Positions 16,909 to 35,456 of a stretch of 39,049 bases of DNA are shown piece after piece. The position numbers and the translations under genes were made by a program. Every line of letters begins with the position of its first letter. The first letter of the stretch is position 1. The notes beneath the pieces were generated by a model that saw only the letters and a list, made by a program, of their open reading frames with translations, was not told the DNA's origin and searched no databases. Source of the DNA: Xanthobacteraceae bacterium. Its GTDB lineage: Bacteria; Pseudomonadota; Alphaproteobacteria; Rhizobiales; Xanthobacteraceae. The stretch is from assembly GCA_019241285.1 (NCBI GenBank), contig JAFAXD010000644.1, forward strand, positions 1-39,049, in the 5' to 3' direction.

Positions 16909-18081
16909 TTACTCGGCGGCGTCGACGAAGGCGGCGCGCGACGCGAGGCGCTCACGTACCAAAGGCAGCACGTTTTCGCCGATGCGGTAGGCCTCTTCGA
17001 GGTGCGGATACCCGGACAGGATGAACATATCGACGCCCGCATCGTGAAACTCGAGGATGCGATCGGCCACGTTTTCGAAGCTACCGACAAGAGCGGTGCC
17101 TGGCGGGATGCCAATGTAGCCGTAACCACTCCAGACATTCGCGTGATTGAACAACCGTTCGAACCCTTCGTCGCCCTCGGCTTGCAATCGCACTTGCCGG
17201 CTCTGTCCAACGGACGTCGAGGCGCGAGCCAAGGCTTTGGCCGCGTTCGCCGCGCCACGCGCCACCCCTTCGTTGTAGATTCGCTGGGCCTCGGCGCGCG
17301 CTTCTTCCTCCGTGCGGCGCGCCAGCGTGTCGACTGACATGCCGAAGCGAAGCGAACGTCCCTCACGGGCGGCAAGCGCACGCATCTCCGCGATAGCTGC
17401 GCCGGTTAATGCCGGTGTTTCAGCACGCAACAGATAGATATCGGCATGCCGCGCCGCCACCAGCTTGCCACCGTCCGACGACCCGACGGTGCATATCGGA
17501 GGAACGGGTGCTTGCAGGTGCGGTCCGCGCAGGCCACCGTTACGGATATTGTAGTACTTGCCTGCGAAACTGAATGGTTCCCCTGACCAGAGCCCGCGCA
17601 CGATTTCGATATACTCGGCCGTGCGCTCGTAACGAGCATCGGGGCTCTCCCAATCGCCGTAGCCGTTCTGCAAGCCGTCATTCGATCCGTTGATGATATT
17701 CCACATCAGCCGTCCGCCGCTGAGCCGCTGAAAGGTCGCAGCCATCAGGGCCGCGTAGGATGGCGGCACATGGAATGGCTGAAAGGCAACGATGTACTTG
17801 AGCAATCGCGTGCGTTGCGCGAGCGCGCTGGAGACGACCCAGGGCTCGTCGCAGGCCGGACCGCCCACCATGAGCACGCCCTGAAACGCGTTGATCTCAG
17901 CTGCCTGTGCCACCTGCGCCAAATAGTCGATGTAAGTCAGTGGATCGCCGATCCGTGTGTTCGACAGTGCGCCAGTCGAATGCGCCGGATCGTCGTTCCA
18001 ATCCCCCCGTCGTCGATTGTCCCCCGGGGGATGATGTCCGTCGCCTTGAGTCGGCAGGCGCCAAAAGAAATCGATGCTCAT
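16909..18081 (-). CDS. SsuD-like FMNH2-dependent alkanesulfonate monooxygenase (LLM class)
   Basis: Luciferase-like monooxygenase of 390 residues. SsuD uses FMNH2 and O2 to cleave the C-S bond of alkanesulfonates, giving sulfite and an aldehyde. The start MSIDFFWRLPTQGDG is the usual SsuD opening. Other family marks are FQGVLMVGGPACDEPWV, LLKYIVAFQPFHVPPS, GGRLMWNIINGSNDG, the P-YERTAEYIEIVRGLW segment and the C-terminal GYGYIGIPPGTALVGS and ILSGYPHLEEAYR. It is the first gene of the minus operon, 24 bases ahead of the binding protein. A GGDG-like linker region (HHPPGDNRRRGDWNDD) is longer than usual. FMNH2 must come from a reductase that is not encoded here. Substrate range is unknown, so no symbol is given. 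Confidence 0.93.
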   Translation of the reverse strand: MSIDFFWRLPTQGDGHHPPGDNRRRGDWNDDPAHSTGALSNTRIGDPLTYIDYLAQVAQAAEINAFQGVLMVGGPACDEPWVVSSALAQRTRLLKYIVAFQPFHVPPSYAALMAATFQRLSGGRLMWNIINGSNDGLQNGYGDWESPDARYERTAEYIEIVRGLWSGEPFSFAGKYYNIRNGGLRGPHLQAPVPPICTVGSSDGGKLVAARHADIYLLRAETPALTGAAIAEMRALAAREGRSLRFGMSVDTLARRTEEEARAEAQRIYNEGVARGAANAAKALARASTSVGQSRQVRLQAEGDEGFERLFNHANVWSGYGYIGIPPGTALVGSFENVADRILEFHDAGVDMFILSGYPHLEEAYRIGENVLPLVRERLASRAAFVDAAE

Positions 18082-18310
18082 CGCATGCTCGTGTCGTCAA
18101 AATCCATCAGCTCAAGCAGGGACCGTGTTCGGACGGCGCATGTTCCAGCCAAGATCACCGCCTATCACCCCGATCTCCAATTGTCTATATATTTAATGGA
18201 CTACTGTCATGGCGGCTGCAGTTCCGTAGTGACCGCCTTGCCAAAACGATTTGTGCTCGCAACGCACGCGCCGGTGGGGCATCTCCTGCCGATTATTGCC
18301 GGAAAAACAA

Positions 18311-18362
18311 TTTGCCCAAACATCCATAAGAGCGGAGTTCAACCGCATCGAGTTTGGGCAAA
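18311..18362. repeat. nested inverted repeat, 11-bp arms
   Basis: TTTGCCCAAAC (18311-18321) is perfectly complementary to GTTTGGGCAAA (18352-18362). The 30-base spacer contains a second, smaller inverted pair, GCGG and CCGC, flanking AGTTCAA. It could form a two-tier hairpin in RNA or serve as two half-sites for a regulator. No T-run follows, so a terminator is unlikely. Confidence 0.6.
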
Positions 18363-18408
18363 ACTTGGGTTGTTTAACTCCATTCAAGCGGTTGATTTTC
18401 TACTACAT

Positions 18409-18424
18409 TTATAGACTTATAGAC
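18409..18424 (+). repeat. tandem direct repeat TTATAGAC x2 next to the desaturase start
   Basis: TTATAGAC is repeated without a gap at 18409-18416 and 18417-18424, ending 14 bases before the GTG start codon and directly followed by the ribosome site GAGG (18425-18428). Each copy contains a -10-like TATAGA. It could be a promoter with a very short leader or a regulator site overlapping it. Confidence 0.45.
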
Positions 18425-18438
18425 GAGGTGCGGGTCCC

Positions 18439-19467
18439 GTGATCATCTTGAACGAACACCCTGTGCAGCAAGGAGCTGATGCGACCGTCGAACGACTCTT
18501 GCGTTCGACCGACCTCGAGGGCGAGACATGGTTCGAGCGCCATGATGGCCCAACCGTGCTGGTTGCATTTGCTATTTATACGAGCTGGATCGCGCTGCTC
18601 CTGTTTCATCAGCGCATCCCTTGGTGGCTGTTGGCGGTCGCCGGTGGCTATGTCATTCAATGGCATTTTTCGCTGCAACACGAAGCGATCCACGGGATGC
18701 GCGGCCTGCCCAAATGGCTGCGGATCGCGTTGGTTTATCCGCCGATCGGAGCCTGGTTTCCGTTTGAGCTTTATCGCCGCTCGCATTTGCAACACCACCG
18801 CAACAGCTTTCTCACCTATCCCGGTCAGGATACCGAATCCTACTATCACGAGGATGAGGATTGGGAGGATTTCGGCCGGCCCTGGCGCGGCCTACTGATC
18901 GTCAATCAAACATTTTTGGGGCGCCTTTTCCTCGGCCCTTTTCTTCGCACGCCCCAGCTCTACTTGAAGGAGGGTGGCAAGATCCTGTCTGGGGACGCCA
19001 AAAATCTGGGGATATGGCTGCGCCATATCGCGGCGTTTGCGCTCGTCCTCCTCGCCGTCACGACGGTGTTCGGCATGCCGGTCTGGGCCTATTTCGCAAC
19101 CTTCCTGTATCCAGGCCTCGTGTTTGGAATGATGCGCAGCTATACCGAGCACCGGTGGGGCGAGCGGCCAAGCGAGCGTACGGCAGTCGTCGAATCAAAC
19201 TGGGTGTTCGGTCTCCTCTTTCTGTGGAATAACCTCCACGCCGTCCATCACATTTATCCCACCGCGCCCTGGTATAGGGTGCCGCGGATCTGGCGCGAGC
19301 ATCGTGATCGCATCATCGCCCATAATGGCGGGTTCGTATTCAAGGGTTATGGCGAGATCGCCTGGCGGTGGCTGGTCAGACCAAATTTCATCCCGGTCCA
19401 TCCCCTGGCCACGGGTCGAGATGCAACGACAGCGAGGGTGACCCCAGCAATCCAAGGGGGCCGTTGA
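18439..19467 (+). CDS. membrane fatty acid desaturase family protein
   Basis: Integral membrane di-iron desaturase or hydroxylase of 342 residues. The GTG at 18439 was chosen because GAGG lies 10 bases upstream. The three histidine boxes that bind the iron pair are HEAIH (81-85), HLQHH (116-120) and HAVHH (267-271), with a further His in YTEHRW (H238). Hydrophobic spans before the first box (about 40-75) and around 195-230 fit the usual four-helix topology. Family members insert double bonds into, or hydroxylate, acyl chains or related hydrocarbons; the substrate here is unknown. It is followed after 65 bases by the PhnD-like gene on the same strand, so the two are probably co-transcribed. 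Its place in a sulfur island is unusual. Confidence 0.9.
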   Translation: MIILNEHPVQQGADATVERLLRSTDLEGETWFERHDGPTVLVAFAIYTSWIALLLFHQRIPWWLLAVAGGYVIQWHFSLQHEAIHGMRGLPKWLRIALVYPPIGAWFPFELYRRSHLQHHRNSFLTYPGQDTESYYHEDEDWEDFGRPWRGLLIVNQTFLGRLFLGPFLRTPQLYLKEGGKILSGDAKNLGIWLRHIAAFALVLLAVTTVFGMPVWAYFATFLYPGLVFGMMRSYTEHRWGERPSERTAVVESNWVFGLLFLWNNLHAVHHIYPTAPWYRVPRIWREHRDRIIAHNGGFVFKGYGEIAWRWLVRPNFIPVHPLATGRDATTARVTPAIQGGR

Positions 19468-19532
19468 CAGGATTCCTATAGGTCCTTACGCGATGCACCG
19501 ACCGTCCCGGCAAAGCTCGAATCCCGGACATC

Positions 19533-20342
19533 ATGATGCGCTCGGCAAGTCTGCCCATGTATCGGCTTCCAGAGGTGGCAGCGGCGACTGCTGCGCTCTG
19601 GGATGCGCTACGGGTGCGTCTGGTCGCGCGTGGACTAGCGATTGACGATGTCATCTTTGCGGATGCTGCGGCGCCCGTGCCGGAAGGTATCGGTCCGCAC
19701 GTTTTCTTCACGCAGGTCTGCGGCTATCCGTTGTTCAAGGTTTTCCGCGACCAAGGCGCTATTCTGGCGACACCATCTTACGCATTTGCCGGATGCGAAG
19801 GCCCCAATCATTGTGCTTTCTTTATCGTCCGGGCAAACGATCCGGCGCGGCGGCTTGAGGAGTTGCGCGGACGTGTGTTCGGCTGCAACAGCCGGCTCTC
19901 CAATTCCGGCATGAACCTGCCGCGGCTCGCGCTGGCTCGGATCGCTAGGGGCAAGCCTTTCTTCCAGCAGGTGGTGATGACGGGTGGACACTTGGCCAGC
20001 CTCGATCATCTGCATCGGGCAACGATCGACCTCTGCGCCATTGACTGCGTCACGTGGGGCCTGGTGCAAAAGTTTCGCCCGGATCAAGCCGCGCGATATC
20101 GGATTTTGGCGCAGACGGCGCCGAGCCCGTCGCTGCCCTTCGTGACCAGTACAACAACGAATGCGCCGACCATCACGACGCTTCGGGATGCCCTTAGCGC
20201 GCTATTCGCGGATGCAGAAACAGCCAGCATTCGAGAAACCCTCGGCCTGACCGCCGTGTCGAACGTAGATTCGGCAGCCTACGAACGGCTGGCTGACTAT
20301 GAGCAAGAAGCCAATGATCTTGGCTATCCAATCCTCGAATAG
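19533..20342 (+). CDS. PhnD-like substrate-binding-fold protein without a signal peptide
   Basis: A 269-residue protein resembling the phosphonate-binding-protein-like family (PF12974 type). It begins directly with the first strand of the fold (ASLPMYRLPEVAAATAALWDALRVRL), with no signal peptide or membrane anchor, so it should be cytoplasmic. Family-type segments are VFFTQVCGYPLFKV, the FGCNSRLSNSGMNLPRL region where PhnD proteins contact the ligand oxyanion, and ATIDLCAIDCVTWGLV. Start codons at 19533 and 19536 are adjacent; GGA is upstream. There is no permease or ATPase partner for it. It could sense or sequester an anion in the cytoplasm, or be an enzyme on a binding-protein fold; both are inference. 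It is likely co-transcribed with the desaturase. Confidence 0.8.
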   Translation: MMRSASLPMYRLPEVAAATAALWDALRVRLVARGLAIDDVIFADAAAPVPEGIGPHVFFTQVCGYPLFKVFRDQGAILATPSYAFAGCEGPNHCAFFIVRANDPARRLEELRGRVFGCNSRLSNSGMNLPRLALARIARGKPFFQQVVMTGGHLASLDHLHRATIDLCAIDCVTWGLVQKFRPDQAARYRILAQTAPSPSLPFVTSTTTNAPTITTLRDALSALFADAETASIRETLGLTAVSNVDSAAYERLADYEQEANDLGYPILE

Positions 20343-20369
20343 GCGTGCGTGACATGCTGGCGCTCGAGT

Positions 20370-21584: not shown

Positions 21585-21904
21585 CAATGCTCTTTCAGCT
21601 TGACGGGTCGCCGGCAGACGTCCCCGGAAACTTTCACGGCGAGCCAATCATGGCGTAAGCTTAGCGGGAAATATTTCTTGATCAACGCACGAGGGTCTGG
21701 AGCGCGATCATTCACAGCCCTCACTATTGCGAATGCACCAAGGGCTCGGCGGCGACAAACGACGGCAAATACGGCAATCCGGCCACCACCGAGCGAACCG
21801 AGATAGATCGTGGTGATGTCGGGGCCGCCGATGTCACGCTTGCGATGTTCCGCAGTACCCTGCTCAGGCGTGATGAATGGTCTCGTCGTGCACGGGTGCC
21901 TCAT
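21584..21904 (-). CDS. small protein translationally coupled to the enamidase-like gene
   Basis: A frame of 106 residues from the ATG at 21904 (MRHPCTTRPFITPEQG), whose TGA shares its last base with the enamidase ATG. That coupling, and the ordered look of the middle (DIGGPDITTIYLGSLGGGRIAVFAVV, about 30-55), favour a real gene. The remainder is basic, with KKYFPLSLRHDWLAVKVSGDV and KLKEH at the end. I do not recognise the family. No strong ribosome site precedes the ATG, and a TTG six codons earlier is the alternative start. It may be an accessory subunit of the amidohydrolase or a chance frame; I lean toward real. Confidence 0.45.
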   Translation of the reverse strand: MRHPCTTRPFITPEQGTAEHRKRDIGGPDITTIYLGSLGGGRIAVFAVVCRRRALGAFAIVRAVNDRAPDPRALIKKYFPLSLRHDWLAVKVSGDVCRRPVKLKEH

Positions 21905-22199
21905 CTTTGCCGTGCACGCCAAGACGGAGAGTGGCGATTGATATAGAGAGCCATTTTGCTCGCCAGTAGATTTACAGTATTTTTTTCTAGATTGCGCAAC
22001 ATCACATCAGTCGTATTGCTTTCCTAAACGGCATCAACCGATCTATTGACTTAATCTATTAATTTTCTCGATAATGCCTCACAGTTGTCGCGGATGGCCA
22101 TAGAGGATTGTTCGCGCGAGTCTATCGAGCGCAGCTCCCTTCGTCACAATGTACGACGCGGCAGCGCGATCATCGAAGTCGACCTAATTCACTGAGTGC
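21905..22199. promoter_or_regulatory. divergent AT-rich intergenic region
   Basis: About 295 bases between the minus-strand enamidase pair and the plus-strand LLM monooxygenase. It is the most AT-rich stretch of this part, with a run of seven T and the best promoter-like sequence of the window (22046-22075). TATAGAG occurs at 21942-21948 and TCTATT at 22042-22047 and 22055-22060. No ORF worth naming lies in it. Confidence 0.6.
22046..22075 (+). promoter_or_regulatory. candidate sigma-70 promoter for the LLM monooxygenase gene
   Basis: TTGACT (22046-22051) and GATAAT (22070-22075) are separated by 18 bases. Each hexamer matches five of six consensus positions. The start codon is about 125 bases downstream, leaving a leader of roughly 115 bases. 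The -35 box lies between two copies of TCTATT, which could be part of an operator. Confidence 0.55.
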
Positions 22200-23264
22200 A
22201 TGACGATGTCTCTTATTCACCCTCGCTTCGGTGTCTGGGCGCTTGTCCAGGGGACCTGGGCTTCGCGTTTCCATCCTGAAGATCCGCCGGACGCGTCTTG
22301 GGACCGCAACAAGCGATTAATCGTGGAGGCAGAAGCGCTCGGATACGACAGTACGCTGGTAGCCCAACACACGATTAACCCGAGTGGTCATCAACTCGAT
22401 CAACTTGAGGCCTGGACGGCGTCCGCCGCATTGGCTGCGGTGACCGAGCGCATTGAAATCATTACTGCCATCAAGCCGTATCTGTTCCATCCGGTCGTCC
22501 TCGCAAAGATGGCGCTACAAATCGAAGAGATCAGCCGCGGGCGTTTTGCGATCAATCTGGTCAATGCCTGGTACAAGCCGGAGCTCGAGAAATCCGGCAT
22601 CGGGTTTGCGCCGCACGATCAACGCTACTCTTACGGCCAGGAATGGCTGCAGGTCGCCCGTGCCCTGATGCAGGGGGAACGGGTATCCTTCAGAGGGCAG
22701 TATTTCCAGGTCGATGATTATCAGCTTTCGCCGAAAGATGCGTTCCGCAACCGACCGTTGATCTATGCTGGTGGTGAGTCCGAAGCGGCACGTAATCTCA
22801 TCGCCGCCGAGGCCGATACCTGGTTCATCAACGGGCAACCACCCGATGATGTGCGCGCCATGATCAGCGACATCCGCTCGCGTCCGCGGCGGGGCGCCCC
22901 GTTGCGGTTCGGATTGTCGGCCTTCGTCATCGCGCGCGCGACCGACGCGGAGGCGGAGCAGGCCTTGTCCGATGCTTTCGAAATCGCCCGCAAAGACGTG
23001 CCGTTGCGCTCCGGCCTTCTCGCCAACGTGGATCCGGACGTAATCATGTTCAAGACGGCCGCCAAGTCGCCGCGCATCGGTACCAATGGCGGAACCTCTG
23101 CTGGACTCGTCGGCAGCTACGACACCGTGGCTGACCGCATCCGCCACTTCGCCGCACTCGGCATCGACCTGTTCATGCTGCAATTCCAGCCGGTCGAGCG
23201 CGAGATGCGGCGCTTCGCTGCCGAGGTACTCCCGCGCGTGCGCCAGCTCGAAGCCGCCGAATAG
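22200..23264 (+). CDS. LLM-class flavin-dependent monooxygenase (SsuD-related, second copy)
   Basis: Luciferase-like monooxygenase of 354 residues, distinct from the SsuD-like protein of system A. Diagnostic stretches are FGVWALVQGTWASRFHPED near the start, AEALGYDSTLVAQHTINPSG, RIEIITAIKPYLFHPVV, ISRGRFAINLVNAWYKPE, LIYAGGESEAARNLIA and the C-terminal GSYDTVADRIRHFAALGIDLFM. The last segment is typical of SsuD-type enzymes that handle sulfonates or sulfones. It needs reduced FMN from a partner not seen here. The ATG at 22200 is used; a second ATG two codons later is equally possible, and no strong ribosome site distinguishes them. It leads a plus-strand group with two binding-protein-fold genes but no permease or ATPase. 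Confidence 0.9.
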   Translation: MTMSLIHPRFGVWALVQGTWASRFHPEDPPDASWDRNKRLIVEAEALGYDSTLVAQHTINPSGHQLDQLEAWTASAALAAVTERIEIITAIKPYLFHPVVLAKMALQIEEISRGRFAINLVNAWYKPELEKSGIGFAPHDQRYSYGQEWLQVARALMQGERVSFRGQYFQVDDYQLSPKDAFRNRPLIYAGGESEAARNLIAAEADTWFINGQPPDDVRAMISDIRSRPRRGAPLRFGLSAFVIARATDAEAEQALSDAFEIARKDVPLRSGLLANVDPDVIMFKTAAKSPRIGTNGGTSAGLVGSYDTVADRIRHFAALGIDLFMLQFQPVEREMRRFAAEVLPRVRQLEAAE

Positions 23265-23460: not shown

Positions 23461-24357
23461 ATGCGTCTTGAATTTGGGGTGCCCACAGACAAGAGCGCCG
23501 CCGAGGTGCGTCTCGGAATCGAAAAGGGCTTCTTTCGCGACGAGGGAATCGATCTCTCTGTCCGCATTGTGTTCGGCGGACCACCATTGGCCGCCGCCTA
23601 TGATCGCGGCGAACTCGTGTTCGGCGAGATTGGCTCACCACCGGCAATCACGGCCATTGCCGCCGGAGCGCGCTTTCGTATCATTGGCAGCGGCACTCGC
23701 CGGAAGGCGCATATGTACCTCGGCGTTCGGCCCGGAATCCGCAGCTTTGCCGAACTCAAGGGCCAACGCATCGGCCTACTGTCGATTGGCAGCTGTCCCG
23801 ACTGGTTCCTGCGCCGGATCCTGGCCGTTGAAGGGCTCGACCCGGCGCGCGACGTCACATTCGTCCCGCTCCTCGAGAACTATCCGCGCGTCATTGCCTT
23901 GATCAAGGAGGGCGTGATCGACGCTTGTCTGGCGACCGAGCCGGCAATTTCCGAGGGTGAAGCCAAAGGGCTGATCAATGTTTGGAGGGCGGTCTACGAT
24001 GCGCGCTACGTTCCCGACTTTCAGTGGGTGGTTTTGGTTGCGAACACCGATTTCATTGCCCGTGATCCAGCGCTGATCCAAGCCGCGTTGCGCGCGTTGC
24101 GTCGAGCAAACCACTACGCGCTGGCGCATGTGGACGAGTTTGCCGACCTCGTTGCGCGCCACAATCGGATAGAGCTGGCAATTGCTCGGCGCTCGATTGT
24201 CCGTGAGCTGTCGCATCTGCATCCCGACACGGAACTCGATCGTGCGGGCCTGGAGAAGGCCATCGACCTGCAGTTTGCGCTGGGCGGAATCCCGGCTCGC
24301 GCCGGCATCGAAGCCTTTACCGATTTACGCTTTCAGCAAGACCGAGCATTCGCGTGA
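23461..24357 (+). CDS. NMT1/SsuA-fold protein without a signal peptide
   Basis: A 298-residue protein with the fold of SsuA/THI5-type binding proteins: LEFGVPTDKSAAEVRLGIEKGFFRDEGID, then VFGEIGSPPAITAIAAG, FAELKGQRIGLLSIGS and LIKEGVIDACLATEPAIS. It starts directly at the first beta-strand at an ATG with GAGAGAGG eight bases upstream, so it should stay in the cytoplasm. Binding-protein-fold enzymes exist, such as the desulfinase DszB and 4,5-dihydroxyphthalate decarboxylase. By my unaided alignment the DszB active-site Cys position is Asp here; the only Cys are C112 and C156. It may be an enzyme of another type or a cytoplasmic ligand sensor. It is 14 bases ahead of an exported binding-protein gene. 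Confidence 0.85.
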   Translation: MRLEFGVPTDKSAAEVRLGIEKGFFRDEGIDLSVRIVFGGPPLAAAYDRGELVFGEIGSPPAITAIAAGARFRIIGSGTRRKAHMYLGVRPGIRSFAELKGQRIGLLSIGSCPDWFLRRILAVEGLDPARDVTFVPLLENYPRVIALIKEGVIDACLATEPAISEGEAKGLINVWRAVYDARYVPDFQWVVLVANTDFIARDPALIQAALRALRRANHYALAHVDEFADLVARHNRIELAIARRSIVRELSHLHPDTELDRAGLEKAIDLQFALGGIPARAGIEAFTDLRFQQDRAFA

Positions 24358-24371: not shown

Positions 24372-25343
24372 ATGGGTCTTGCAGCTGCGCACCGTATCAT
24401 CCGCGTCCTTGGCATTCTGGCATTGCTGATAAGTGGCGCTTCTGCGCAGCCGTCCCGTACTGACCTGCGGCTCGGTTTTCAGCGCTCCTCAACACTCACC
24501 GCGCTGCTAAAAGAGACCGGTGAGCTAGAGCGCGCGCTGGCCCCCCTTAACTTGCGCATCAGCTGGCACGAATTCACGAGTGGACTGCCGCTGCTGGAAG
24601 CGCTGAACCTCGGCAAGCTCGACTTCAGTGCCGACGTTGCCGACACCGTACCGGTCTTTGCCCAAGCCGCAGGGGCCCGCCTGGTTTACGTGGCGGAGGA
24701 AGCCCCTTCTCCGGCTGCGCAGGCAATCCTGGTGCCGAACAATTCATCGATCAGATCACTCGCCGATCTACGAGGCAAGAGAATCGCCGTGACAAAAGGC
24801 GCGGGCAGCCACTATCTGCTCGTTGTTGCGCTCAACAGCGTCGGACTGTCATTCAAGAACATCTCTCCCGCCTATTTGACGCCGGCCGATGCTCGCGCTG
24901 CATTTGTCGGGGGCGCCGTGGATGCATGGGTTGCGTGGGATCCCTTTCTCTCAAGCGCGGAGCAGCAGTCGGGCGCCCGGGTTGTGGCGGACGGCAATGG
25001 TCTCGCCAATTACAAGCGATACTATTTGTCGACCGAGAGCTTTGCCAAAGACCCCAGCGACATCCTGCAAATCATTTTCGACAAGCTCGGCCAGACCGGG
25101 ACGTGGGTGAAACAGAATCCGCAACCCGCGGCTGATCTGCTCGCCAAAGCATGGGGGATCGAAGCTCCCGTCATCATTCAGGCGAACAGCCATCGCAGTT
25201 ACAAGGTCAATCTGGTTACCGCCCAGGGTCTATCCGAGCAGCAAAAGATTGCCGATGTGTTTCTTGCCGAAGGCGTGCTCCCCGGCAAAGTGAACACCGG
25301 CGACGTCGCGATCTGGCATCCTCAATCAGAAGCCGCAAGGTAA
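24372..25343 (+). CDS. aliphatic sulfonate-type ABC substrate-binding protein (SsuA family)
   Basis: Periplasmic binding protein of 323 residues. A signal peptide (RIIRVLGILALLISGASA) is followed by QPSRTDLRLGFQRSS, with cleavage expected after residue 25. The SsuA pattern is clear: LLEALNLGKLDFSADVADTVPVFA, LADLRGKRIAVTKGAGSHYLLV, AAFVGGAVDAWVAWDPFLS, and a late VFLAEGVLPGKVN. It lies 14 bases after the signal-less protein and probably shares its transcript. No permease or ATPase follows; its stop is only six bases from the converging amidohydrolase stop. It must therefore feed one of the other importers in the island or one elsewhere. Confidence 0.92.
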   Translation: MGLAAAHRIIRVLGILALLISGASAQPSRTDLRLGFQRSSTLTALLKETGELERALAPLNLRISWHEFTSGLPLLEALNLGKLDFSADVADTVPVFAQAAGARLVYVAEEAPSPAAQAILVPNNSSIRSLADLRGKRIAVTKGAGSHYLLVVALNSVGLSFKNISPAYLTPADARAAFVGGAVDAWVAWDPFLSSAEQQSGARVVADGNGLANYKRYYLSTESFAKDPSDILQIIFDKLGQTGTWVKQNPQPAADLLAKAWGIEAPVIIQANSHRSYKVNLVTAQGLSEQQKIADVFLAEGVLPGKVNTGDVAIWHPQSEAAR

Positions 25344-27051: not shown

Positions 27052-28275
27052 ATGAGCCTGCATTCTGTCTCCACCCGTCGATCTGCCAAGGCGCCCCGTC
27101 CGGCTGCGCGCGTCATCACCTCGGATGCAGAGGCGATTGCAGTCACCACCAAGCTCGCGGCGTCCTTTCGGGATGGCGCGCGCGAGCGCGACCGCGACCG
27201 GATATTGCCTTGGCACCAGATTGAGCAATTAACGGACGCCGGCTTTTTCGGTGTCAGCGTTCCGCGCCAATATGGGGGCGCGGAGGTCTCTGCGGTCACC
27301 GTCGCGGAGGTGTTCCGCATTCTTTCGGCCGCCGATCCAAGCATAGGCCAGATTCCGCAGAACCATTTCTGCTGGCTCCCGCTGATCAGCAACGGGACCG
27401 AGGCGCAGGCGCAAAGCTTTTACGCCCGCATTCTGCGGGGCGCACGTATCGGCAATGCCCACTCCGAAGCAACTCTGCGCCGCCAGAACGACTATGAGCA
27501 CCGGCTGGAAAAAGTCGAAGGTGGTTTCCTCATTACTGGACGTAAGTTCTATTCGACTGGAGCCATTTTCGCTGATCTTGTTCCCTTCATTGATAACAAT
27601 GGACCGGACGGGCCGCGTATCTTTTTTGCCGAAGCCGATGCTGAAGGCTTGACCATTCTCGACGATTGGCGAGGAATGGGTCAGCGTACCACGGCCAGCG
27701 GCACGACGGTGTTCGAGCGCGTCTTTGTTCCTGACGCGAACGTGTTTGCCATTGGCGAGACCTCTCGGAACCCGATCCCGTTCGGGCTGCTTGCCAGCCT
27801 CATCCATGTCGCGATCGATGTCGGAATTGCCGAGGACGTCCTCACCGACGCCGCGCGCTACATCCACACCCAGAATCGGCCGTGGATCGACAATCCGGAA
27901 GAGCATTTCAAAGAGCCGTTCGTGATCGCTCAATTCGGAGAGTATGGGGTGCAGGTGCGCAGTGCCGCGGTCATGCTTCGACACGCCGCCCAGGCTATTG
28001 ACGCGGCACGTTTGGACCCCACACCGGACCGGATTCTCACGGCTCGGCTGGCGGTGGCGGATGCGCGCATCCTCGCCAGTGAAGCGGCAACGCGAGTTGC
28101 CAACGAATTCTTCCTGCTGACCGGAGCTCGCGCCACGCTTGAGCAACATGGGCTTGATCGTCATTGGCGCAACGCTCGCACCCATTCGCTACACGATCCG
28201 CTGCGTTGGAAACGCTACTATCTCGGCAACTATTACCTCAATGGTGTTGTCCCGGGGCGCGGCGTGTACATCTAG
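27052..28275 (+). CDS. SfnB/DszC-like flavin-dependent oxidoreductase (acyl-CoA dehydrogenase fold)
   Basis: A 407-residue protein of the acyl-CoA dehydrogenase fold in the SfnB/DszC branch, whose members use reduced flavin and O2 on sulfur compounds (DszC oxidises dibenzothiophene; SfnB is tied to dimethylsulfone use). Branch marks are FFGVSVPRQYGGAEVS, IPQNHFCWLPLI, GRKFYSTGAIFAD, DDWRGMGQRTTASGTTVFE and the C-terminal HWRNARTHSLHDPLRWK with NYYLNG. The start is ATG with GGA nearby. It leads the plus-strand transcript containing importer B, whose binding-protein gene begins 68 bases later. This supports a role on the sulfur compound imported by that system. True SfnB and DszC substrates cannot be told apart from sequence alone. 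Confidence 0.9.
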   Translation: MSLHSVSTRRSAKAPRPAARVITSDAEAIAVTTKLAASFRDGARERDRDRILPWHQIEQLTDAGFFGVSVPRQYGGAEVSAVTVAEVFRILSAADPSIGQIPQNHFCWLPLISNGTEAQAQSFYARILRGARIGNAHSEATLRRQNDYEHRLEKVEGGFLITGRKFYSTGAIFADLVPFIDNNGPDGPRIFFAEADAEGLTILDDWRGMGQRTTASGTTVFERVFVPDANVFAIGETSRNPIPFGLLASLIHVAIDVGIAEDVLTDAARYIHTQNRPWIDNPEEHFKEPFVIAQFGEYGVQVRSAAVMLRHAAQAIDAARLDPTPDRILTARLAVADARILASEAATRVANEFFLLTGARATLEQHGLDRHWRNARTHSLHDPLRWKRYYLGNYYLNGVVPGRGVYI

Positions 28276-28343: not shown

Positions 28344-29429
28344 ATGAAACAGTTCACAAGCCTTTCGCGGGTTCCCCAGGCAGCCCTCGCCGCCCTGATC
28401 CTCGGCGCGGTGCTCCTGCCGTCGTCGTCTTCCCCGGCGCAGGCCGACCAACCGCTGCCGTCCATTAACTTGCCAATCGAAGGTTGGACCGTGGTGGCCC
28501 TCAAAAAGGGCTTCCTCCAGGAGGAGTACAACAAGCTTGGCACAAAGGTGAACCTTGTCGATCCCGGCACAACCCAGCTCATCGGCGCCGAATCGGCGCT
28601 GCTCGATCGTGGCGGCCTCGCCATCGCACAGCGGATGATCTATCCGGCGACCGTGCACAAGGCCAACGGCATCGATGCCTCGATTGTTTGGCTCTCGACC
28701 AAGTCGTCGGAATACCGGACGCCGGTTCTTGCCCTGAAAAGCTCCGGACTCAACAGCATTGCCGATCTCAAAGACAAAAACTTCGGATCAAGCCGCGTCG
28801 CCTGCGGCTGGACCTCGCCAACTGAAATCTTCACCGCCGCCGGACTGCCCCTCGACAATGCGCGTGAGCGCGGCCAGGTGCGCTATACCAATATTTCCAA
28901 TACCGTCGCGACGTCCGCCGCGCTACTCAGCGGGCGCATCGACGCGACGTCGACGCATGTTGCGCTCCCGGATGTCGCCGCCTTGATCGAAACCGATGAG
29001 GTCAAGGTCATTGGCCGCAGTCCGGCAGACGGCGTCTATGTCAACAATGCCGGCCGTGTCGCTTATTTCGTGATGCGCGAGTTCGTGGACGCACACCCGC
29101 AGGCAATCGTCGCATTTCTGCGCGCGCGCGAGAAAACCGATGCCTGGATCAATGCCAATGTGGATGAGGCGGCCGCGATCATCGCCAAAGAGACCCGCAT
29201 CCCGGTCGCGATCGCGCGCTTTGGCATCACCGATCCGTCCTCGTTCCAATACATGCAGGGCGAGCCTTCATCGCAGGTTGCTGTCGACGCCATCAAGACA
29301 TTCCAGAAATGGTATATCGACCATGGCGACGATATTCTGAGCTCGCGCCATCTCTCCGATGACACAATCGAGTCGTTCGTCGACAAGCGATTTTTCAAGG
29401 GCGGAGAATATTCGGTCTATCAGGACTGA
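28344..29429 (+). CDS. ABC substrate-binding protein of system B
   Basis: Exported binding protein of 361 residues from the ATG at 28344, with GGAG upstream. The signal peptide ends SSSPAQA-DQ at about residue 34. The mature part reads LPSINLPIEGWTVVALKKGF, then LIGAESALLDRGGLAIAQRM, SIADLKDKNFGSSRVACGW, and a late KTFQKWYIDHGDDILSSRHL. This matches the NMT1/SsuA-type family but is more divergent than the other binding proteins here, so the ligand may not be a simple alkanesulfonate. It is followed by the permease after 46 bases and the ATPase after a further two. An upstream in-frame start would overlap the SfnB-like gene and was rejected. Confidence 0.9.
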   Translation: MKQFTSLSRVPQAALAALILGAVLLPSSSSPAQADQPLPSINLPIEGWTVVALKKGFLQEEYNKLGTKVNLVDPGTTQLIGAESALLDRGGLAIAQRMIYPATVHKANGIDASIVWLSTKSSEYRTPVLALKSSGLNSIADLKDKNFGSSRVACGWTSPTEIFTAAGLPLDNARERGQVRYTNISNTVATSAALLSGRIDATSTHVALPDVAALIETDEVKVIGRSPADGVYVNNAGRVAYFVMREFVDAHPQAIVAFLRAREKTDAWINANVDEAAAIIAKETRIPVAIARFGITDPSSFQYMQGEPSSQVAVDAIKTFQKWYIDHGDDILSSRHLSDDTIESFVDKRFFKGGEYSVYQD

Positions 29430-29475
29430 TCTGCGTGCCGCGTCTGCGGCTCACTGAGCAACACCGCGAGCTGTC

Positions 29476-30321
29476 ATGAGCAACACAAGCGTTACACTGC
29501 CCGGTGCGATCGCTGGAGATCGGGCCGGGCAGCCCGCCACCGCGGCGCGGCGTCGCCGCGTCGCCCTGAGCTCGCTGATCGGCTTGCTGCTGCCGCTCGC
29601 AATCCTGGGTGCCTGGGAAATCGCGTCGCACCTGCACTGGGTGTCCAAGGTCTTCTTGCCGACGCCGGAGCGAACCGTCGCCTCGTTCTTCGACCTGCTG
29701 TTCAACGAGGGCTTTTATTTCGATCTTATCGCCAGCCTGTCCATCGTCGGCCAGGCCTTCTTCTACGGCACCGCGCTCGGCTTGCTGCTGGGCGCGGGAG
29801 CCGGGATGTCGAAAGTGATCGAACGCGTCTTCGGCCCGACACTTGACGGCATCAGACACATCCCGCCCATCGCTTGGCTGCCGCTTGTCGTATTGTGGGC
29901 CGGGGTTGGTCCGCTGGGCAAAGTCATCGTCATCAGCAAGGTCGTTTTCTTCCCGGTCTTTCTCAACACCCTGCAGGGCATTCGCAATGTCCCGCAGAAA
30001 TACGTGGATCTTGCCAAAGTGCTGACGCTCACACGCTGGCAGTTCACGCGCCGCATCATCATTCCGGGCGCATTGCCCAGCATCCTCGTCGGTATCCGCT
30101 ATGGCGCGAGTCTGGCCTGGGCTCTGGTCGTAGTCGCGGAGGGACTGAGCGGAATGAAGGGAATCGGATTTCTGATCTTCCGCGCCCAGGCGCTGCTGAT
30201 GACCGATCAGCTCTTGGTCTGCATGGTCGTGATTGGTCTTATCGGCTTCCTGATCGACTATGGAATGCGCCGTCTTGAGGGGCGCCTGCTGCGCTGGAAG
30301 CAGGGCTTCGAAGGTCACTGA
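29476..30321 (+). CDS. ABC importer permease of system B (SsuC family)
   Basis: Inner-membrane permease of 281 residues. A basic cytoplasmic N-terminus (ARRRRVALSS) precedes the first membrane helix (LIGLLLPLAILGAWEIAS), followed by the SsuC-type FLPTPERTVASF. Helices continue through GTALGLLLGAGAG, IPPIAWLPLVVLWAGVGPLGK and VVFFPVFLNTLQGIRNVP. The coupling loop is YVDLAKVLTLTRWQFTRRI, followed by the Gly-rich GALPSILVGIRYG. It would form a homodimer with the next ATPase. Its stop is two bases before the ATPase start. Confidence 0.94.
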   Translation: MSNTSVTLPGAIAGDRAGQPATAARRRRVALSSLIGLLLPLAILGAWEIASHLHWVSKVFLPTPERTVASFFDLLFNEGFYFDLIASLSIVGQAFFYGTALGLLLGAGAGMSKVIERVFGPTLDGIRHIPPIAWLPLVVLWAGVGPLGKVIVISKVVFFPVFLNTLQGIRNVPQKYVDLAKVLTLTRWQFTRRIIIPGALPSILVGIRYGASLAWALVVVAEGLSGMKGIGFLIFRAQALLMTDQLLVCMVVIGLIGFLIDYGMRRLEGRLLRWKQGFEGH

Positions 30322-30323
30322 CG

Positions 30324-31151
30324 ATGCCGCAGTCAATCGAAACGAAACCGGCCGGACAACGCGGCCAGCTTGATCTACGCCACGTCAGCAAGACCTACGA
30401 CGTCGATGGCCGCACCCTGCAGGTGCTGCGCGACGTCAATCTCATGGTGGAGCCGGGTGAGTTTATCAGCATCGTCGGCGCCAGCGGCTGCGGCAAGTCC
30501 ACGCTGCTGCGGCTGATCATTGGTCTTGATGCGGACTACCAAGGCCACATTCTGCTCGATGATCGACCGATCTCAGGCACGAGCCTCGCGCGCGGCATCG
30601 TATTTCAGGATCCCTGCCTGCTGCCCTGGCTCACCCTGCAGGACAATGTCGCCCTCGCGCTTGCGAGTGTGCCGTTGTCCGAGCGCGAAAAAACTGACCT
30701 GGTGCGCACGCACATCGAGCTGGTCGGGCTTACGGGTTTCGAGCGCGCCTATCCGCACCAGCTGTCAGGCGGCATGGCGCAACGCGCCGCAATCGCCCGC
30801 GGACTCGTCACCCGGCCCGAGATTTTGTTGCTTGATGAACCGCTTGGCGCGCTCGATGCGCTCACCCGTATGCGCCTGCAGGACGAACTGCTGCGGATCT
30901 GGGAAACCGAAAAGATCACCATGATTCTCGTCACCCACGACGTCGAGGAGGCGATCTATCTCGGTGACCGGATCGTAGTCATGCAGGCCAATCCGGGCCG
31001 GATCAGCCGTGACATCAACGTTGAGTTGCCGCCAGTGCGCCAGCGGACCGACGCGGCGTTTATCGCGCTTCGTCAAGAGGTCCTCGCCGATATGGGCGCT
31101 CTCTCCCAGTCTGATCGAGGAGGTCCCGCGCGTTTGCGGCGAGTGTCTTGA
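30324..31151 (+). CDS. ABC importer ATPase of system B (SsuB family)
   Basis: ATPase of 275 residues. It has Walker A GASGCGKST (52-60), Q-loop VFQDPCLLPW, signature LSGGMAQRAAIARGL (148 on), Walker B EILLLDEPLGALD (166 on) and the switch His in VTHDVEEA (H205). SGGMAQR is shared with the system A ATPase, whereas system C has SGGQRQR, so A and B are probably closer relatives. The C-terminal 25 residues (ADMGALSQSDRGGP onward) extend past the usual domain end. Its TGA shares one base with the ATG of the beta-propeller gene. Confidence 0.94.
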   Translation: MPQSIETKPAGQRGQLDLRHVSKTYDVDGRTLQVLRDVNLMVEPGEFISIVGASGCGKSTLLRLIIGLDADYQGHILLDDRPISGTSLARGIVFQDPCLLPWLTLQDNVALALASVPLSEREKTDLVRTHIELVGLTGFERAYPHQLSGGMAQRAAIARGLVTRPEILLLDEPLGALDALTRMRLQDELLRIWETEKITMILVTHDVEEAIYLGDRIVVMQANPGRISRDINVELPPVRQRTDAAFIALRQEVLADMGALSQSDRGGPARLRRVS

Positions 31152-32245
31152 TGCTGCGCCGGCTGACGGGTTTGATCCTGCTGTCCACCTGCCTGGCAAC
31201 GACACCGGCAGCATCGGCGGCGGAACTTTGGAACGACGTCTTCATAGCCGCACGCGGCGCGACAAAAGTCACCGTCCTCGATCCGGATACTCGCGAATTC
31301 GCCGCCACTTTGGATGTTGGCTTGGTGCCAGCAGCGCTTGCAGTCTCGGTCCCGCTCAAACTGCTGGTCATCGCCGACGGAATTTCACCGCGCATCGCAT
31401 TCTTTGACCTCGGCGATCGCGAACTGCATATGCTTGCCCTTGATTTCGTACCACAGCGGATTCTATTCGCCCCCAGCGGCACGGTCCTGGTGGCGATCGA
31501 TACCATCGGCGGGAGCGTAGCATTCATCGACGCGGCCGCGCGCTCCGTGACCGGGCGGATTGCCGATCTCGGGCCGATACGGGAAGCTCTGTTCAGTGAT
31601 GACGGACGTATGTTCTACGTGTCGACCGACACGGTCGGCCTCACGCCTTTCGACGCATCGCACGTTACAATCGCAAAGCGGCCGGTCAGCACCGCGCCAT
31701 TCTCCGCATTCGCACGCTCACCGAACGGGCGCGAGGGCTTTGGACTGCGCGCGGGCGGAATGATTGACGTGTTCGACCTTCGCCGCGGCGAGCGGCTCGA
31801 CCGCCTGCGCGACGCATCATCGGCCGACGCGGTCTTCGTCACCGGCACCGGCCGCTTTCTGGTGCTGCTCGACAACGCTCATCAGCAAATCGCGATCGCT
31901 GCCGTCGAGGGATTGCGAAGCGTCGCAGCCGTTCCCGCGAAACCTGGAATGACTTGGGTCTACAGCGCCTGGTTCGATATGGTTGCGTTCGTGACCCTTA
32001 CTGCTGAACGCGAATTGCTGGTCTATGACCTCGATCACGCGCAATCGCGAGGCTCGATTGCGCTTGACGGAACGCCCGGTCCGGGCGCGGTGACGCCCGA
32101 CGGCAGCAAATTATTCCTGCCGGTTGCAGATCCCAGTGCCGTTCTGGTGATCGATGCTCCTACGGGACAGATCGTTAGCCGCGTACCGCTTTCGGCAGCG
32201 CCGATACTGGCCGTGATGGCGGGCAGTTACGGACTTTGCCACTGA
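31151..32245 (+). CDS. secreted beta-propeller (YVTN-type) protein coupled to importer B
   Basis: A 364-residue protein from the ATG at 31151, which overlaps the ATPase stop (TGATG). A signal peptide (MLRRLTGLILLSTCLATTPA, site ASA-AEL near 23) sends it to the periplasm; LSTC resembles but does not meet the usual lipoprotein motif. The rest is a series of blade-like repeats: VTVLDPDTREFAATLDVG, VAFIDAAARSVTGRIADLG, MIDVFDLRRGERLDRL, LLVYDLDHAQSRGSIALDG, VLVIDAPTGQIVSRVPL. This fits a six- or seven-bladed propeller of the YVTN/lactonase type. No catalytic residues are evident. Such a protein is not a known part of Ssu systems; it may bind or process the ligand outside the cell membrane. Confidence 0.85.
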   Translation: MLRRLTGLILLSTCLATTPAASAAELWNDVFIAARGATKVTVLDPDTREFAATLDVGLVPAALAVSVPLKLLVIADGISPRIAFFDLGDRELHMLALDFVPQRILFAPSGTVLVAIDTIGGSVAFIDAAARSVTGRIADLGPIREALFSDDGRMFYVSTDTVGLTPFDASHVTIAKRPVSTAPFSAFARSPNGREGFGLRAGGMIDVFDLRRGERLDRLRDASSADAVFVTGTGRFLVLLDNAHQQIAIAAVEGLRSVAAVPAKPGMTWVYSAWFDMVAFVTLTAERELLVYDLDHAQSRGSIALDGTPGPGAVTPDGSKLFLPVADPSAVLVIDAPTGQIVSRVPLSAAPILAVMAGSYGLCH

Positions 32246-32299
32246 GACAGTTCAGGTCGGCCGATTAATGCTGAACCCGGTCCGATAGCAATGTCCTGA

Positions 32300-33580
32300 C
32301 TAGGAAACAGCCTGTCTGGGTGATGCCACGACGGAATAGGCATCGGCCACCGCTGGACTGAGACCGACATCGTTGCCGGCGATGAAGATCGGCGGCGGTC
32401 TTCCGTTCAGGTAAAACTCGCCGATTTGGCGGGCTTTGTAGAGATAGGGGTTGTGCGAGGACACGGCGCGTGCGTTGCGCCAATGGCGGTCCAAGGCCAC
32501 TTTCGCGTCGATTGCCGAAGCGCTGAGCGCATCGAAGAGCTGCGAAGTGGCGCCGAGGACCAGCGGAACGAGCACGACCTGTGCCGAGGCAATGGCAATA
32601 TCGGATTTGACATAGGCCTCGTCCGTCGTGGGCGCGTGTTCCCCGTCTTCATTCCATCTATTCCAGGCTTCTTGGAGCGCTGCAGCCGCTCCCAGCACGA
32701 TCGAACGCGCAGCACTCGCGGCAGCGGCGATCTTGCCAACTTCAGTTTGAATGATGGGATCGTTCCGGGCTAAATCACCTGATCCGGTTGAATAGATGCG
32801 GCGGCGCGCGACGACCCTCTCCGTCACATCGCGCGCCGCGGCGGCAGCGATCCCCGCCAGGGTCGCAAGATGCACCAGTTGCGGAAAGCCGCTTCCGATT
32901 CTTGTGATCGGTTTGTCCCGCCCCGAAATTTCATTGGCGTAGACAATGACATCCTCGAAAATCGAGGTTCCCGTCGCCGTCAGCCGTTGACCAAACCCGC
33001 CCCAGTCATCGACGAGGGTGACGCCTTTGCGATCAGAGGGAACAATCACCGTAATGCGCCTGCCGATGTGGTCGACGGCAACAACAGGAATCCATTGTGC
33101 GTACAGGCTCCCGGTCCCATACATCTTCCTGCCATTGAGCCGGTAATTCCCATCCGCATGCGGCACGACTCTGGTGCGAACCTCGCTGATCGGCGTGTCG
33201 GACGGTTCGGTCGTCGCATTTCCGAACAGATCGCCCTTCGCGACGCGCTCAAGCCAGAGCTTTTGCTTCTCCCTCTCTGAATGCACGATTAGGTGCTCGA
33301 CTCGATGGAAATGCAGCCGCAACGACTGTGGCAAATTGGAATCGGCAGCCCCGAGCTCGATCAGCAAGCCAAAGAGTTGCACGAGCGACGCGCCGTAGCC
33401 GCCCAGCGCGACGGGAACGCGCAGCGCACCGAACCTCTGCTCCCGCAACCATCCCACCTCTTCAAAAAGCAGAGTCCGGTCAAGCTCTCGCGATACGGCA
33501 TTGCGCCTAATTCGTTCGAATATTGGTTGGAATATCGCGAGTAGTTCGGCATCTCTCGGCCGCTTGTCGATTGAACTCAT
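32300..33580 (-). CDS. DszC/SfnB-like acyl-CoA dehydrogenase-fold oxidoreductase (system C)
   Basis: A 426-residue protein from the ATG at 33580 (MSSIDKRPRD), with GGAGAG upstream. It shares the layout of the SfnB/DszC branch: RVPVALGGYGASLVQLF, SLRLHFHRVEHL, NGRKMYGTGSLYAQW, DDWGGFGQRLTATGTSIFE and a C-terminal RHWRNARAVSSHNPYLYK with EFYLNG. The HNPYLYK end replaces HDPLRWK of the other copy, so the two are distant paralogues. It would be a flavin-dependent monooxygenase on a sulfur compound. It is the last gene of the six-gene minus operon and converges on the beta-propeller gene with a 54-base gap. Confidence 0.88.
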   Translation of the reverse strand: MSSIDKRPRDAELLAIFQPIFERIRRNAVSRELDRTLLFEEVGWLREQRFGALRVPVALGGYGASLVQLFGLLIELGAADSNLPQSLRLHFHRVEHLIVHSEREKQKLWLERVAKGDLFGNATTEPSDTPISEVRTRVVPHADGNYRLNGRKMYGTGSLYAQWIPVVAVDHIGRRITVIVPSDRKGVTLVDDWGGFGQRLTATGTSIFEDVIVYANEISGRDKPITRIGSGFPQLVHLATLAGIAAAAARDVTERVVARRRIYSTGSGDLARNDPIIQTEVGKIAAAASAARSIVLGAAAALQEAWNRWNEDGEHAPTTDEAYVKSDIAIASAQVVLVPLVLGATSQLFDALSASAIDAKVALDRHWRNARAVSSHNPYLYKARQIGEFYLNGRPPPIFIAGNDVGLSPAVADAYSVVASPRQAVS

Positions 33581-33627
33581 CCAGTCTCTCCAACGCACGA
33601 GAGCGCTGCTTGAAGGCGTAAATTACC

Positions 33628-34083
33628 TCAAGCCGCAATCGCTATGTCTTCCAGCTCCACCCCGATATTTCCGCCGCGTGCAAGCGTGTTGTAGATCGGG
33701 CAGGTATCGGTGAATTCTTTGACAAGCGCCGCACTTGTCCGACTGTCGACGCCATTGAGCCGCACGCGCAGACGAATGTATTCATAGCGGGTCACGTCAC
33801 TCGGATCTCGCTTGAACGAGACGTTCACACGACCGGATTCCAAACGCACCCCGAGTGTATCGGCATGGCGCTGGATCACGGCCAGCGCGCAGGAAGCAAG
33901 CGCAGACAGGAGCAGCTGACCAGCCTGGACAGCTTCACCCGGGCCGCCGGTCGACACTTTCGCATCGGACACAAAGTGATTTGCGTCGGCGTCGATCAGA
34001 TATCGTCCGCGGACGCCGGTCGTGGTGCCGACGACGGTCACGATCTCACCGTCCGCCGCGCTGACTTGATTGAGTTGGGTCAT
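33628..34083 (-). CDS. OsmC-family peroxiredoxin-like protein
   Basis: A 151-residue OsmC/Ohr-family protein. The two catalytic Cys are C65 in ALASCALAV and C128 in TDTCPIYNT, the usual positions for thiol-dependent reduction of organic peroxides. The N-terminal strands (VTVVGTTTGVRGRYLIDAD) and the central helix entry GGPGEAVQAGQLLLSAL also match. Its ATG overlaps the stop of the DszA-like monooxygenase gene as ATGA, so the two are co-translated. A protective role against peroxides leaked by flavin monooxygenases is a reasonable inference. A gap of 47 bases separates it from the DszC-like gene. Confidence 0.93.
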   Translation of the reverse strand: MTQLNQVSAADGEIVTVVGTTTGVRGRYLIDADANHFVSDAKVSTGGPGEAVQAGQLLLSALASCALAVIQRHADTLGVRLESGRVNVSFKRDPSDVTRYEYIRLRVRLNGVDSRTSAALVKEFTDTCPIYNTLARGGNIGVELEDIAIAA

Positions 34084-35456
34084 GCGCTCCTCTTGAGCTT
34101 TGCTGTTGCGCGACGCGATCGCCAGGCACCGGACGCCGGACGTTCGAGGCCGAGATTGTCGCGTAGCGTCGTGCCGGTGTAGCCCGTCCGGTAAATGCCG
34201 CGCTGCTGCAGTTCGGGCACCACCAGACGGACGAAATCCTCAAAGCCCCCGGGCTGATACGGCGCGGCAACCGTAAAGCCGTCGGCCGCGCCGTTGCGAA
34301 ACCAGTGCTCCATGCCGTCCGCAACATGCTGCGCGGTTCCGACAAAATCGCCCTCGTAGCGGCTGCCATAGCGCTTGCCGAGATCTCGCAACGTCAAGCC
34401 CTCGCGCGCTGTGGCCTCGCGCACTTCCTGATAGTGGCCTTGGACGCCCGGCACATCCACGTCCGGCAGCGGAGCGTCGAGCGAAAAGGCACCGAGGTCC
34501 ACATCAAGATGATAGGACAACGTCGAGAGCCCGGCGTGGGGATCGACGAGGTCGCGCAGAAGCTTGCTTTTGTGCTCGGCGATGGCCGGGGTCTCGCCCA
34601 CAAGCGGCGTTGCGGCGGGCAGAATCTTCAACGAGTCGGGGTGGCGACCGTAAGCTTTCGTTCTCGCTTTCATCTCCGCGTAGAAGGCTTTGGCGCTGTC
34701 GAACGAATCGTGACTGACGAAAATCACGTCGGCCCATTGCGCGGCGAAATCTCGCCCCCGATCGGACGGCCCGGCCTGGATGATGACCGGATATCCCTGC
34801 GGCGGGCGGGCGACGTTGAGCGGCCCTTTGACCTTGAACCACTCCCCCTCGTGATCGATGTAGTGGACCTTTGCGGGGTCAGCGAACAGCGGCGTGCGGC
34901 GATCCAACACCAACGCATCGTCATCCCAGCTGTCCCAGAGCTGGAACACGACCTCGAGAAATTCGTCGGCGCGATCGTAACGTCGATGGCGCGGGATCTG
35001 CTCCCGCTTGGAGAAGTTCCTGGCTTCGGCATCCTGAAAGGATGTAACCACGTTCCAGGCGGCCCGGCCCGCGCTCAGATGATCGAGAGTGGCGAAGGAA
35101 CGAGCCACCTCGAAGGGTTCGTAATGACTGGTGGAACGCGTTGAAGCGAGCCCGAGATTCCGGGTGACGCCCGCCATGACGGTGAGCACGACCACAGGGT
35201 CGAGGCGCAGCGACCCGAGCGCGCCGTAGCGCAACTGCGTGTCATTGGTCCCCTGATAGCGGTCCGGCACCGCGAGGATATCGGCGAAGAACGCCAAGTC
35301 GAACAGCCCACGCTCGAGCACCCGGGCAATGTGTTGATAATAGGCTGCATCGAGCCAGCCGGATTCGGACGCCGGATAACGCCAGCCGCCGGGGCGACCC
35401 GGGCCGGCCGTCACGAAAGCGGCAAGGTGAAGTTGGCGGTCCGTGGTGTTCGGCAT
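34080..35456 (-). CDS. NtaA/SnaA/DszA-family FMN-dependent monooxygenase
   Basis: LLM-class monooxygenase of 458 residues in the NtaA/SnaA/DszA branch, whose members use FMNH2 to cleave nitrilotriacetate, pristinamycin precursors or dibenzothiophene sulfone. Branch marks are GPGRPGGWRYP, FFADILAVPDRYQG, STSHYEPFEVARSFATLD, GRAAWNVVTSFQDAEARNF, YDRADEFLEVVFQLWDSW, VIIQAGPSDRGRDFAAQWAD and the late VVPELQQRGIYRTGYTGTTL. The ATG at 35456 lies five bases after the binding-protein stop; a TTG three codons earlier is the alternative. It sits in the operon after importer C and before OsmC. A sulfone, sulfonate or similar substrate is inferred from the operon. Confidence 0.94.
   Translation of the reverse strand: MPNTTDRQLHLAAFVTAGPGRPGGWRYPASESGWLDAAYYQHIARVLERGLFDLAFFADILAVPDRYQGTNDTQLRYGALGSLRLDPVVVLTVMAGVTRNLGLASTRSTSHYEPFEVARSFATLDHLSAGRAAWNVVTSFQDAEARNFSKREQIPRHRRYDRADEFLEVVFQLWDSWDDDALVLDRRTPLFADPAKVHYIDHEGEWFKVKGPLNVARPPQGYPVIIQAGPSDRGRDFAAQWADVIFVSHDSFDSAKAFYAEMKARTKAYGRHPDSLKILPAATPLVGETPAIAEHKSKLLRDLVDPHAGLSTLSYHLDVDLGAFSLDAPLPDVDVPGVQGHYQEVREATAREGLTLRDLGKRYGSRYEGDFVGTAQHVADGMEHWFRNGAADGFTVAAPYQPGGFEDFVRLVVPELQQRGIYRTGYTGTTLRDNLGLERPASGAWRSRRATAKLKRSA

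Follow-up and report, generated by a model that had tools for sequence, protein, structure and literature searches.

A putative organosulfur-acquisition island in a Xanthobacteraceae genome, with Ssu-type importer sets and a DszA-like/OsmC operon

Introduction

Do the fold families of the 4S desulfurization enzymes DszA, DszB and DszC, when they recur among sulfonate importer genes, amount to a 4S-like route or to a different way of acquiring sulfur? The question is raised by contig JAFAXD010000644.1 (our contig C602) of Xanthobacteraceae bacterium (assembly GCA_019241285.1), whose whole 39,049 nucleotides are called the window here; the genome of 6.63 Mb is fragmented into 680 contigs. The original prediction, made from the sequence letters, had placed between positions 16909 and 35456 a DszA/NtaA-family monooxygenase, two DszC/SfnB-branch oxidoreductases, two SsuD-like monooxygenases and a binding-protein-fold protein of the kind seen in the desulfinase DszB. 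It proposed an oxidising and desulfurising route for an imported organosulfur compound, with phylogenetic placement as a check and the caveat that the single enzymes may have ordinary Ssu/Sfn functions.

A putative organosulfur-acquisition island

The gene families make it likely that the stretch is an organosulfur-acquisition island, in which several separate operons combine Ssu-type importer sets with flavin enzymes, and which is probably used when sulfate is scarce. Profile searches identified three monooxygenases of the type dependent on reduced flavin mononucleotide (FMNH2) and two SfnB-branch flavoenzymes (Table 1), with open reading frames (ORFs) at the predicted coordinates; both SsuD-like monooxygenases proved to be SsuD/SfnG-type luciferase-fold proteins. 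The gene map also confirms that the enzyme families are split over separate operons with Ssu importers. These operons span positions 13464 to 38461 and thus reach beyond the predicted limits, with an SsuA/SsuC/SsuC/SsuB set on the left (13464-16884), an SsuA-SsuB-SsuC set on the right (35462-38461), and repeated Ssu-type importer sets within 25 kb. Genes were accepted only if backed by BLAST or a hidden Markov model (HMM), because a simple caller based on guanine-cytosine (GC) content gave shadow ORFs in high-GC loci. From the luciferase-fold matches across the whole genome, 0.31 such genes would be expected in the window; since three were found (Poisson P ~0.004), their clustering exceeds chance.

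The DszA-like enzyme and its conserved cassette

The right-hand operon, on the minus strand, has the observed order ssuC-ssuB-ssuA-dszA-like-osmC-sfnB-like. Its DszA-like protein (34080-35456) belongs to the predicted family, with 524 bits to NtaA/SnaA/DszA (TIGR03860) against a cut-off of 280; the best solved relative is the dibenzothiophene (DBT)-sulfone monooxygenase BdsA/DszA (E 3e-124), and the identity to DszA from the complete dszABC set of plasmid pMyong1 is 48.5%. In a maximum-likelihood tree of the DszA family (39 rows), the protein falls into a 25-row clade with DszA/BdsA (100/100), with YtnJ and 7e36 apart. Placement therefore keeps it in the DszA-containing clade, but in a separate, OsmC-linked subclade of 11 rows (99/97), beside a three-row rhodanese subclade and not in the DszA subclade itself. 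The 11 rows cover the window, Variovorax, Xenophilus, Streptomyces radicis, a genome of the same order (G742), a Pseudomonas metagenome-assembled genome (MAG) and an Alcaligenaceae MAG.

Alignment shows that the FMN-site residues V137, S139, R159 and Y160 are all kept, as are F12, F56, F246 and H316; most of these eight are essential in BdsA (PMC5819316). His20, Gln80, Val372 and His156, on the other hand, are lost (to Gly, Leu, Tyr and Arg, respectively). His20 and Gln80 contact DBT sulfone in DszA/BdsA (PMC5819316, PMC11134501), and the H20F exchange in BdsA abolished over 90% of the activity (PMC5819316). The OsmC-linked subclade shares the four losses, varying at position 372, and the sister rhodanese subclade likewise lacks the sulfone-contact residues, whereas L010 and L021, relatives on the DszA side, retain His20 and Gln80. 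As the FMN-site residues are kept and the sulfone contacts lost, the protein should work as an FMNH2 monooxygenase, while its substrate is probably not a DBT-sulfone-like ligand.

A conserved five-gene cassette, ssuC-ssuB-ssuA-dszA-like-osmC, recurs in Variovorax and Xenophilus (81-83% identity of the DszA-like protein), Streptomyces radicis (69%) and G742 (68%). The osmC gene lies close downstream of the dszA-like gene in all 11 subclade rows, and the full order is kept in all of them except two MAG contigs, which are short. Both conserved cysteines of OsmC are present in the window protein and kept across 11 homologues. In the related cassettes no counterpart of the sfnB-like gene was found, and no DszB or DszC-like neighbour was detected. 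The sister subclade has a rhodanese gene instead of osmC directly downstream of the dszA-like gene. That DszA-like enzymes are repeatedly paired with OsmC, or in the sister group with rhodanese, may mean that their reaction yields a reactive sulfur species or a peroxide.

Two of the three sister-subclade members (L014 and L015) carry the dszA-like and rhodanese genes near a hydroxyethylthiazole kinase gene, possibly a locus of thiazole breakdown.

The DszC/SfnB-like flavoenzymes

The two proteins predicted as members of the DszC/SfnB branch (27052-28275 and 32300-33580) share 28% identity. Both are of the SfnB type, the first exceeding the NCBI cut-off for SfnB and the second staying below it (Table 1), but a small SfnB tree places both outside the DszC/TdsC clade (95/96), on long branches. 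Enzymes of the DszC/SfnB fold oxidise dimethyl sulfide (DMS) and dimethyl sulfoxide (DMSO) in Acinetobacter (PMC13352529).

A rare cytoplasmic binding-fold protein

The protein at 23461-24357 is the least explained part of the island. Its AlphaFold model (predicted local distance difference test score, pLDDT, 82) has a type-2 periplasmic-binding fold, and neither an in-frame start codon nor a signal peptide was found upstream, so that the predicted fold and cytoplasmic location stand. A closer likeness to DszB does not: Thi5 (Z 25.5) and SsuA (Z 24.9) match the structure better than DszB (Z 20.3), and the binding fold is common to many proteins. The catalytic residues of DszB, Cys27, His60 and Arg70, which every DszB sequence in our alignment retains, are all absent, and blastp gave no significant similarity to DszB (E 0.04). 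Homologues with 40-55% identity occur in at least four other genomes among those sampled. Four of them start at or near the same residue and share with the window protein the motif G110-S111-C112-x-x-W115 (GSCxxW). The sequences thus define a rare family of its own, marked by this conserved motif and distinct from DszB.

Among cytoplasmic enzymes with a binding fold, the hydroxymethylpyrimidine (HMP)-phosphate synthase Thi5 is the closest in structure, but its sequence is only about 20% identical and the CCCFC motif of Thi5 is absent from the window protein; no thiamine gene was recognised beside it in the window. In an ssu operon of the relative G052, SsuA, SsuC and SsuB are followed by a DszB homologue (E 2e-15 to solved DszB, triad kept), with the homologue of the window protein immediately downstream. 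One could speculate that the family comprises enzymes using Cys112, placed unlike Cys27 of DszB, to release sulfur from an organosulfur intermediate or otherwise transform it, though we hold this to be rather unlikely.

A DszB homologue with intact catalytic Cys, His and Arg is encoded elsewhere in the same genome (contig C354:14766-15758, L048), and its motifs YTRCP, AHFSH and FREGG align to DszB. Its neighbours are an SsuD-like monooxygenase, two SsuA-type proteins and SsuB. The permease gene (ssuC) at the end of contig C354 is split: its other part, broken off at the matching residue, closes contig C604, where an SsuD-like gene and two of the SsuA type come before it. Because C354 continues into C604, this desulfinase candidate belongs to a separate ssu operon. 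Joining the right end of the window to C354 through the split permease was considered and rejected, as the C354 fragment continues that of C604 at residue level.

A DszB homologue with the triad among ssu genes was also seen at L033:8212-9279, and out of 200 genomes sampled, five carry one.

Proposed role and alternative explanations

We propose that every operon joins reduced-flavin monooxygenases to an Ssu-type importer or binding protein and would be induced by sulfate starvation. The right-hand operon may import a small anionic organosulfur compound, whose C-S bond the DszA-like enzyme would cleave with FMNH2 and O2. Oxidation of a sulfide or sulfoxide by the SfnB-like flavoenzyme could precede or follow this cleavage, and a thiol, persulfide or peroxide formed as a reactive by-product may be handled by OsmC. 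FMNH2 would come from a reductase outside the window; flavin-reductase-family genes are present elsewhere in the genome. The SfnB, SfnG-like and SsuD-like proteins would fit the known scheme from sulfide through sulfoxide, sulfone, sulfinate and sulfonate to sulfite.

Several points weigh against this proposal. The SsuD- and SfnG-like proteins may differ in substrate, because they score well below the equivalog cut-offs. Enzymes of the NtaA/DszA family also act outside sulfur chemistry (on EDTA, riboflavin and hexachlorobenzene), so that the case for a sulfur role of the right-hand operon depends in part on the Ssu importer that it encodes. Moreover, no gene for a sulfur-type regulator, a flavin reductase or a desulfinase could be recognised in the window.

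Another explanation, which overlaps partly with the proposed island function, is that the DszA-like/OsmC operon cleaves a sulfur heterocycle or thioether to a product at the level of a thiol, thiocarboxylate or persulfide rather than a sulfinate, to be processed by OsmC or rhodanese. The rhodanese genes of the sister subclade, the hydroxyethylthiazole kinase gene near two of its members and the loss of the sulfone contacts in both subclades are in line with such chemistry. The argument is nevertheless one of guilt by association, the sister subclade counts three members here, OsmC is known more for reducing peroxides, and a literature search for a link with sulfane sulfur found no mention of OsmC among the papers listed. 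We regard this explanation as improbable.

Since the genome encodes the triad-bearing DszB homologue on C354, beside an SsuD-like monooxygenase and Ssu genes, a dispersed 4S-like route also has to be weighed, in which a sulfone formed by the SfnB-type enzymes would be opened to a sulfinate by the DszA-like enzyme, with sulfite then released by the C354 protein. The strongly supported place of the DszA-like enzyme within the DszA-containing clade speaks for it. However, the C354 protein sits in another ssu operon, the DszA-like protein lacks the His20 and Gln80 contacts, the DszC-like proteins lie outside the DszC clade, and the related cassettes have no detected DszB or DszC-like neighbour; such a route therefore appears very improbable. 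That general catabolic NtaA/SsuD-like monooxygenases were gathered by chance without forming a sulfur system is equally hard to credit, for although the genome has 53 luciferase-fold matches and several TIGR03860 members act on other substrates, the significant clustering, the SfnB score over its cut-off, the repeated importer sets and the conservation of the Ssu-DszA-like cassette across phyla all argue against it.

The organosulfur-acquisition island thus retains the predicted organosulfur oxidation and sulfonate-type import, which gene families and precedent support, whereas a 4S-like sequence of DszC, DszA and DszB encoded in the window is not supported; the caveat of ordinary Ssu/Sfn functions comes closer to the evidence.

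Comparison with known systems

Comparable systems have been described in Acinetobacter, Gordonia and Rhodoferax. In the DMS pathway of Acinetobacter and Pseudomonas, DMSO and dimethyl sulfone (DMSO2) are formed from DMS by the group D enzymes Dms1-3, with SfnG, MsuC and SsuD acting downstream (PMC13352529). As in the window, group D monooxygenases of the acyl-CoA dehydrogenase (ACAD) fold and luciferase-fold group C monooxygenases occur beside ssuABC, for stepwise conversion from sulfide via sulfone, sulfinate and sulfonate to sulfite (PMC13352529). The window enzymes, however, stay below the SfnG and SsuD cut-offs and are accompanied by the DszA-like/OsmC operon and the cytoplasmic binding-fold protein.

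Gordonia terrae C-6 carries bdsABC, for benzothiophene, beside sulfonate ATP-binding cassette (ABC) genes (PMC3868597). DszC-like and DszA-like genes near sulfonate-type ABC genes are common to both loci, but in Gordonia three enzymes, including a desulfinase, form one operon with demonstrated benzothiophene activity, while the window has separate operons and no identified desulfinase. For Gordonia, a pathway has also been considered in which dszA- and dszC-like genes occur while dszB is lacking, and Ssu-type enzymes carry out the final steps (PMC11852219). In the sulfolane locus of Rhodoferax, a dszA homologue of proposed function ends an ssu operon (PMC6395730); this likeness to the window concerns the described gene order, and OsmC goes unmentioned in the passages on it.

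The 4S dszABC set (pMyong1, L032) shares the three fold families with the window, which has no common dszA/dszB/dszC operon, and whose DszA-like and DszC-like proteins depart from 4S as described above. Because the binding-fold protein is without the DszB triad and the triad-bearing homologue lies on C354, the window is not a 4S copy.

Fold resemblance is thereby parted from function in a field where the names DszA and DszC have spread widely by homology. The comparison marks the DszA-like/OsmC cassette of Variovorax and Streptomyces strains as open to substrate tests, points to DszB homologues of this bacterial family that keep the triad and lie close to ssu genes, and highlights the rare cytoplasmic protein.

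Other features of the window

Operon I, on the left, starts with the SsuD/MsuD-like monooxygenase, followed by an SsuA type, two permeases and an ATPase. In its SsuA-type gene the signal peptide and the body lie in different frames, indicating a frameshift or a sequencing or assembly error; a cytoplasmic DszB was considered here and rejected, the signal peptide in the other frame marking an ordinary periplasmic SsuA type. The first plus-strand set consists of the SfnG/SsuD-like monooxygenase, the cytoplasmic protein and SsuA, and the second plus-strand operon of SfnB, an SsuA type, SsuC, SsuB and a beta-propeller protein.

Table 1. Features of the putative island, by position in the window
Positions	Strand	Assignment	Basis
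13464-14231	-	SsuB-type ABC ATPase, operon I	PF00005
14256-14963	-	SsuC-type permease, operon I	PF00528, SsuC match; ORF runs further upstream, 5' end approximate
15005-15790	-	second SsuC-type permease, operon I	ORF; SsuC match in own-genome search
15794-16884	-	SsuA-type binding protein, operon I	NMT1
16909-18081	-	SsuD/MsuD-like FMNH2 monooxygenase, operon I	PRK00719 294 bits, below cut-off; SsuD TIGR03565 287 bits, below cut-off 518; best solved relatives MsuD and SsuD
22200-23264	+	SfnG/SsuD-like luciferase-fold monooxygenase	SfnG TIGR04021 228 bits, below cut-off 383; best solved relative 3rao
23461-24357	+	binding-protein-fold protein, cytoplasmic	no signal peptide; GSCxxW family
24372-25343	+	SsuA sulfonate-binding protein with signal peptide	TIGR01728 191 bits, above cut-off 163.5
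27052-28275	+	SfnB-family flavin monooxygenase	TIGR04022 472 bits, above NCBI cut-off 431
28344-29429	+	SsuA-type binding protein with signal peptide	TIGR01728 72 bits, below cut-off
29476-30321	+	SsuC/TauC-type permease	PF00528; PRK11365 161 bits
30324-31151	+	SsuB/TauB-type ATPase	PF00005
32300-33580	-	divergent SfnB-like (ACAD-fold) flavoenzyme, last gene of right-hand operon	TIGR04022 271 bits, below cut-off 431
33628-34083	-	OsmC-family protein	PF02566; 4-base overlap with dszA-like gene
34080-35456	-	DszA-like FMN monooxygenase, OsmC-linked subclade	TIGR03860
35462-36541	-	SsuA-type binding protein, right-hand operon	TIGR01728 141 bits, below cut-off 163.5
36528-37298	-	SsuB ATPase, right-hand operon	PRK11247 277 bits
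37295-38191	-	SsuC permease, first gene of right-hand operon	PRK11365 294 bits; mechanical ORF reaches 38461

The beta-propeller protein that closes the SfnB operon (31148-32245, plus strand) is of the YncE/pyrroloquinoline quinone (PQQ)-associated type. A second binding-protein-fold protein, PhnD-like and with no obvious signal peptide, is encoded at 19533-20342 (plus strand), adjoining a fatty-acid-desaturase-family gene (18439-19467). At the right end, a membrane protein gene, perhaps for a permease, is cut by the contig end, so that only its start (about 38860-39049, plus strand) is present, and the left end (1-10232) is occupied by alpha-amylase/isoamylase-family genes of the glycogen metabolism type.

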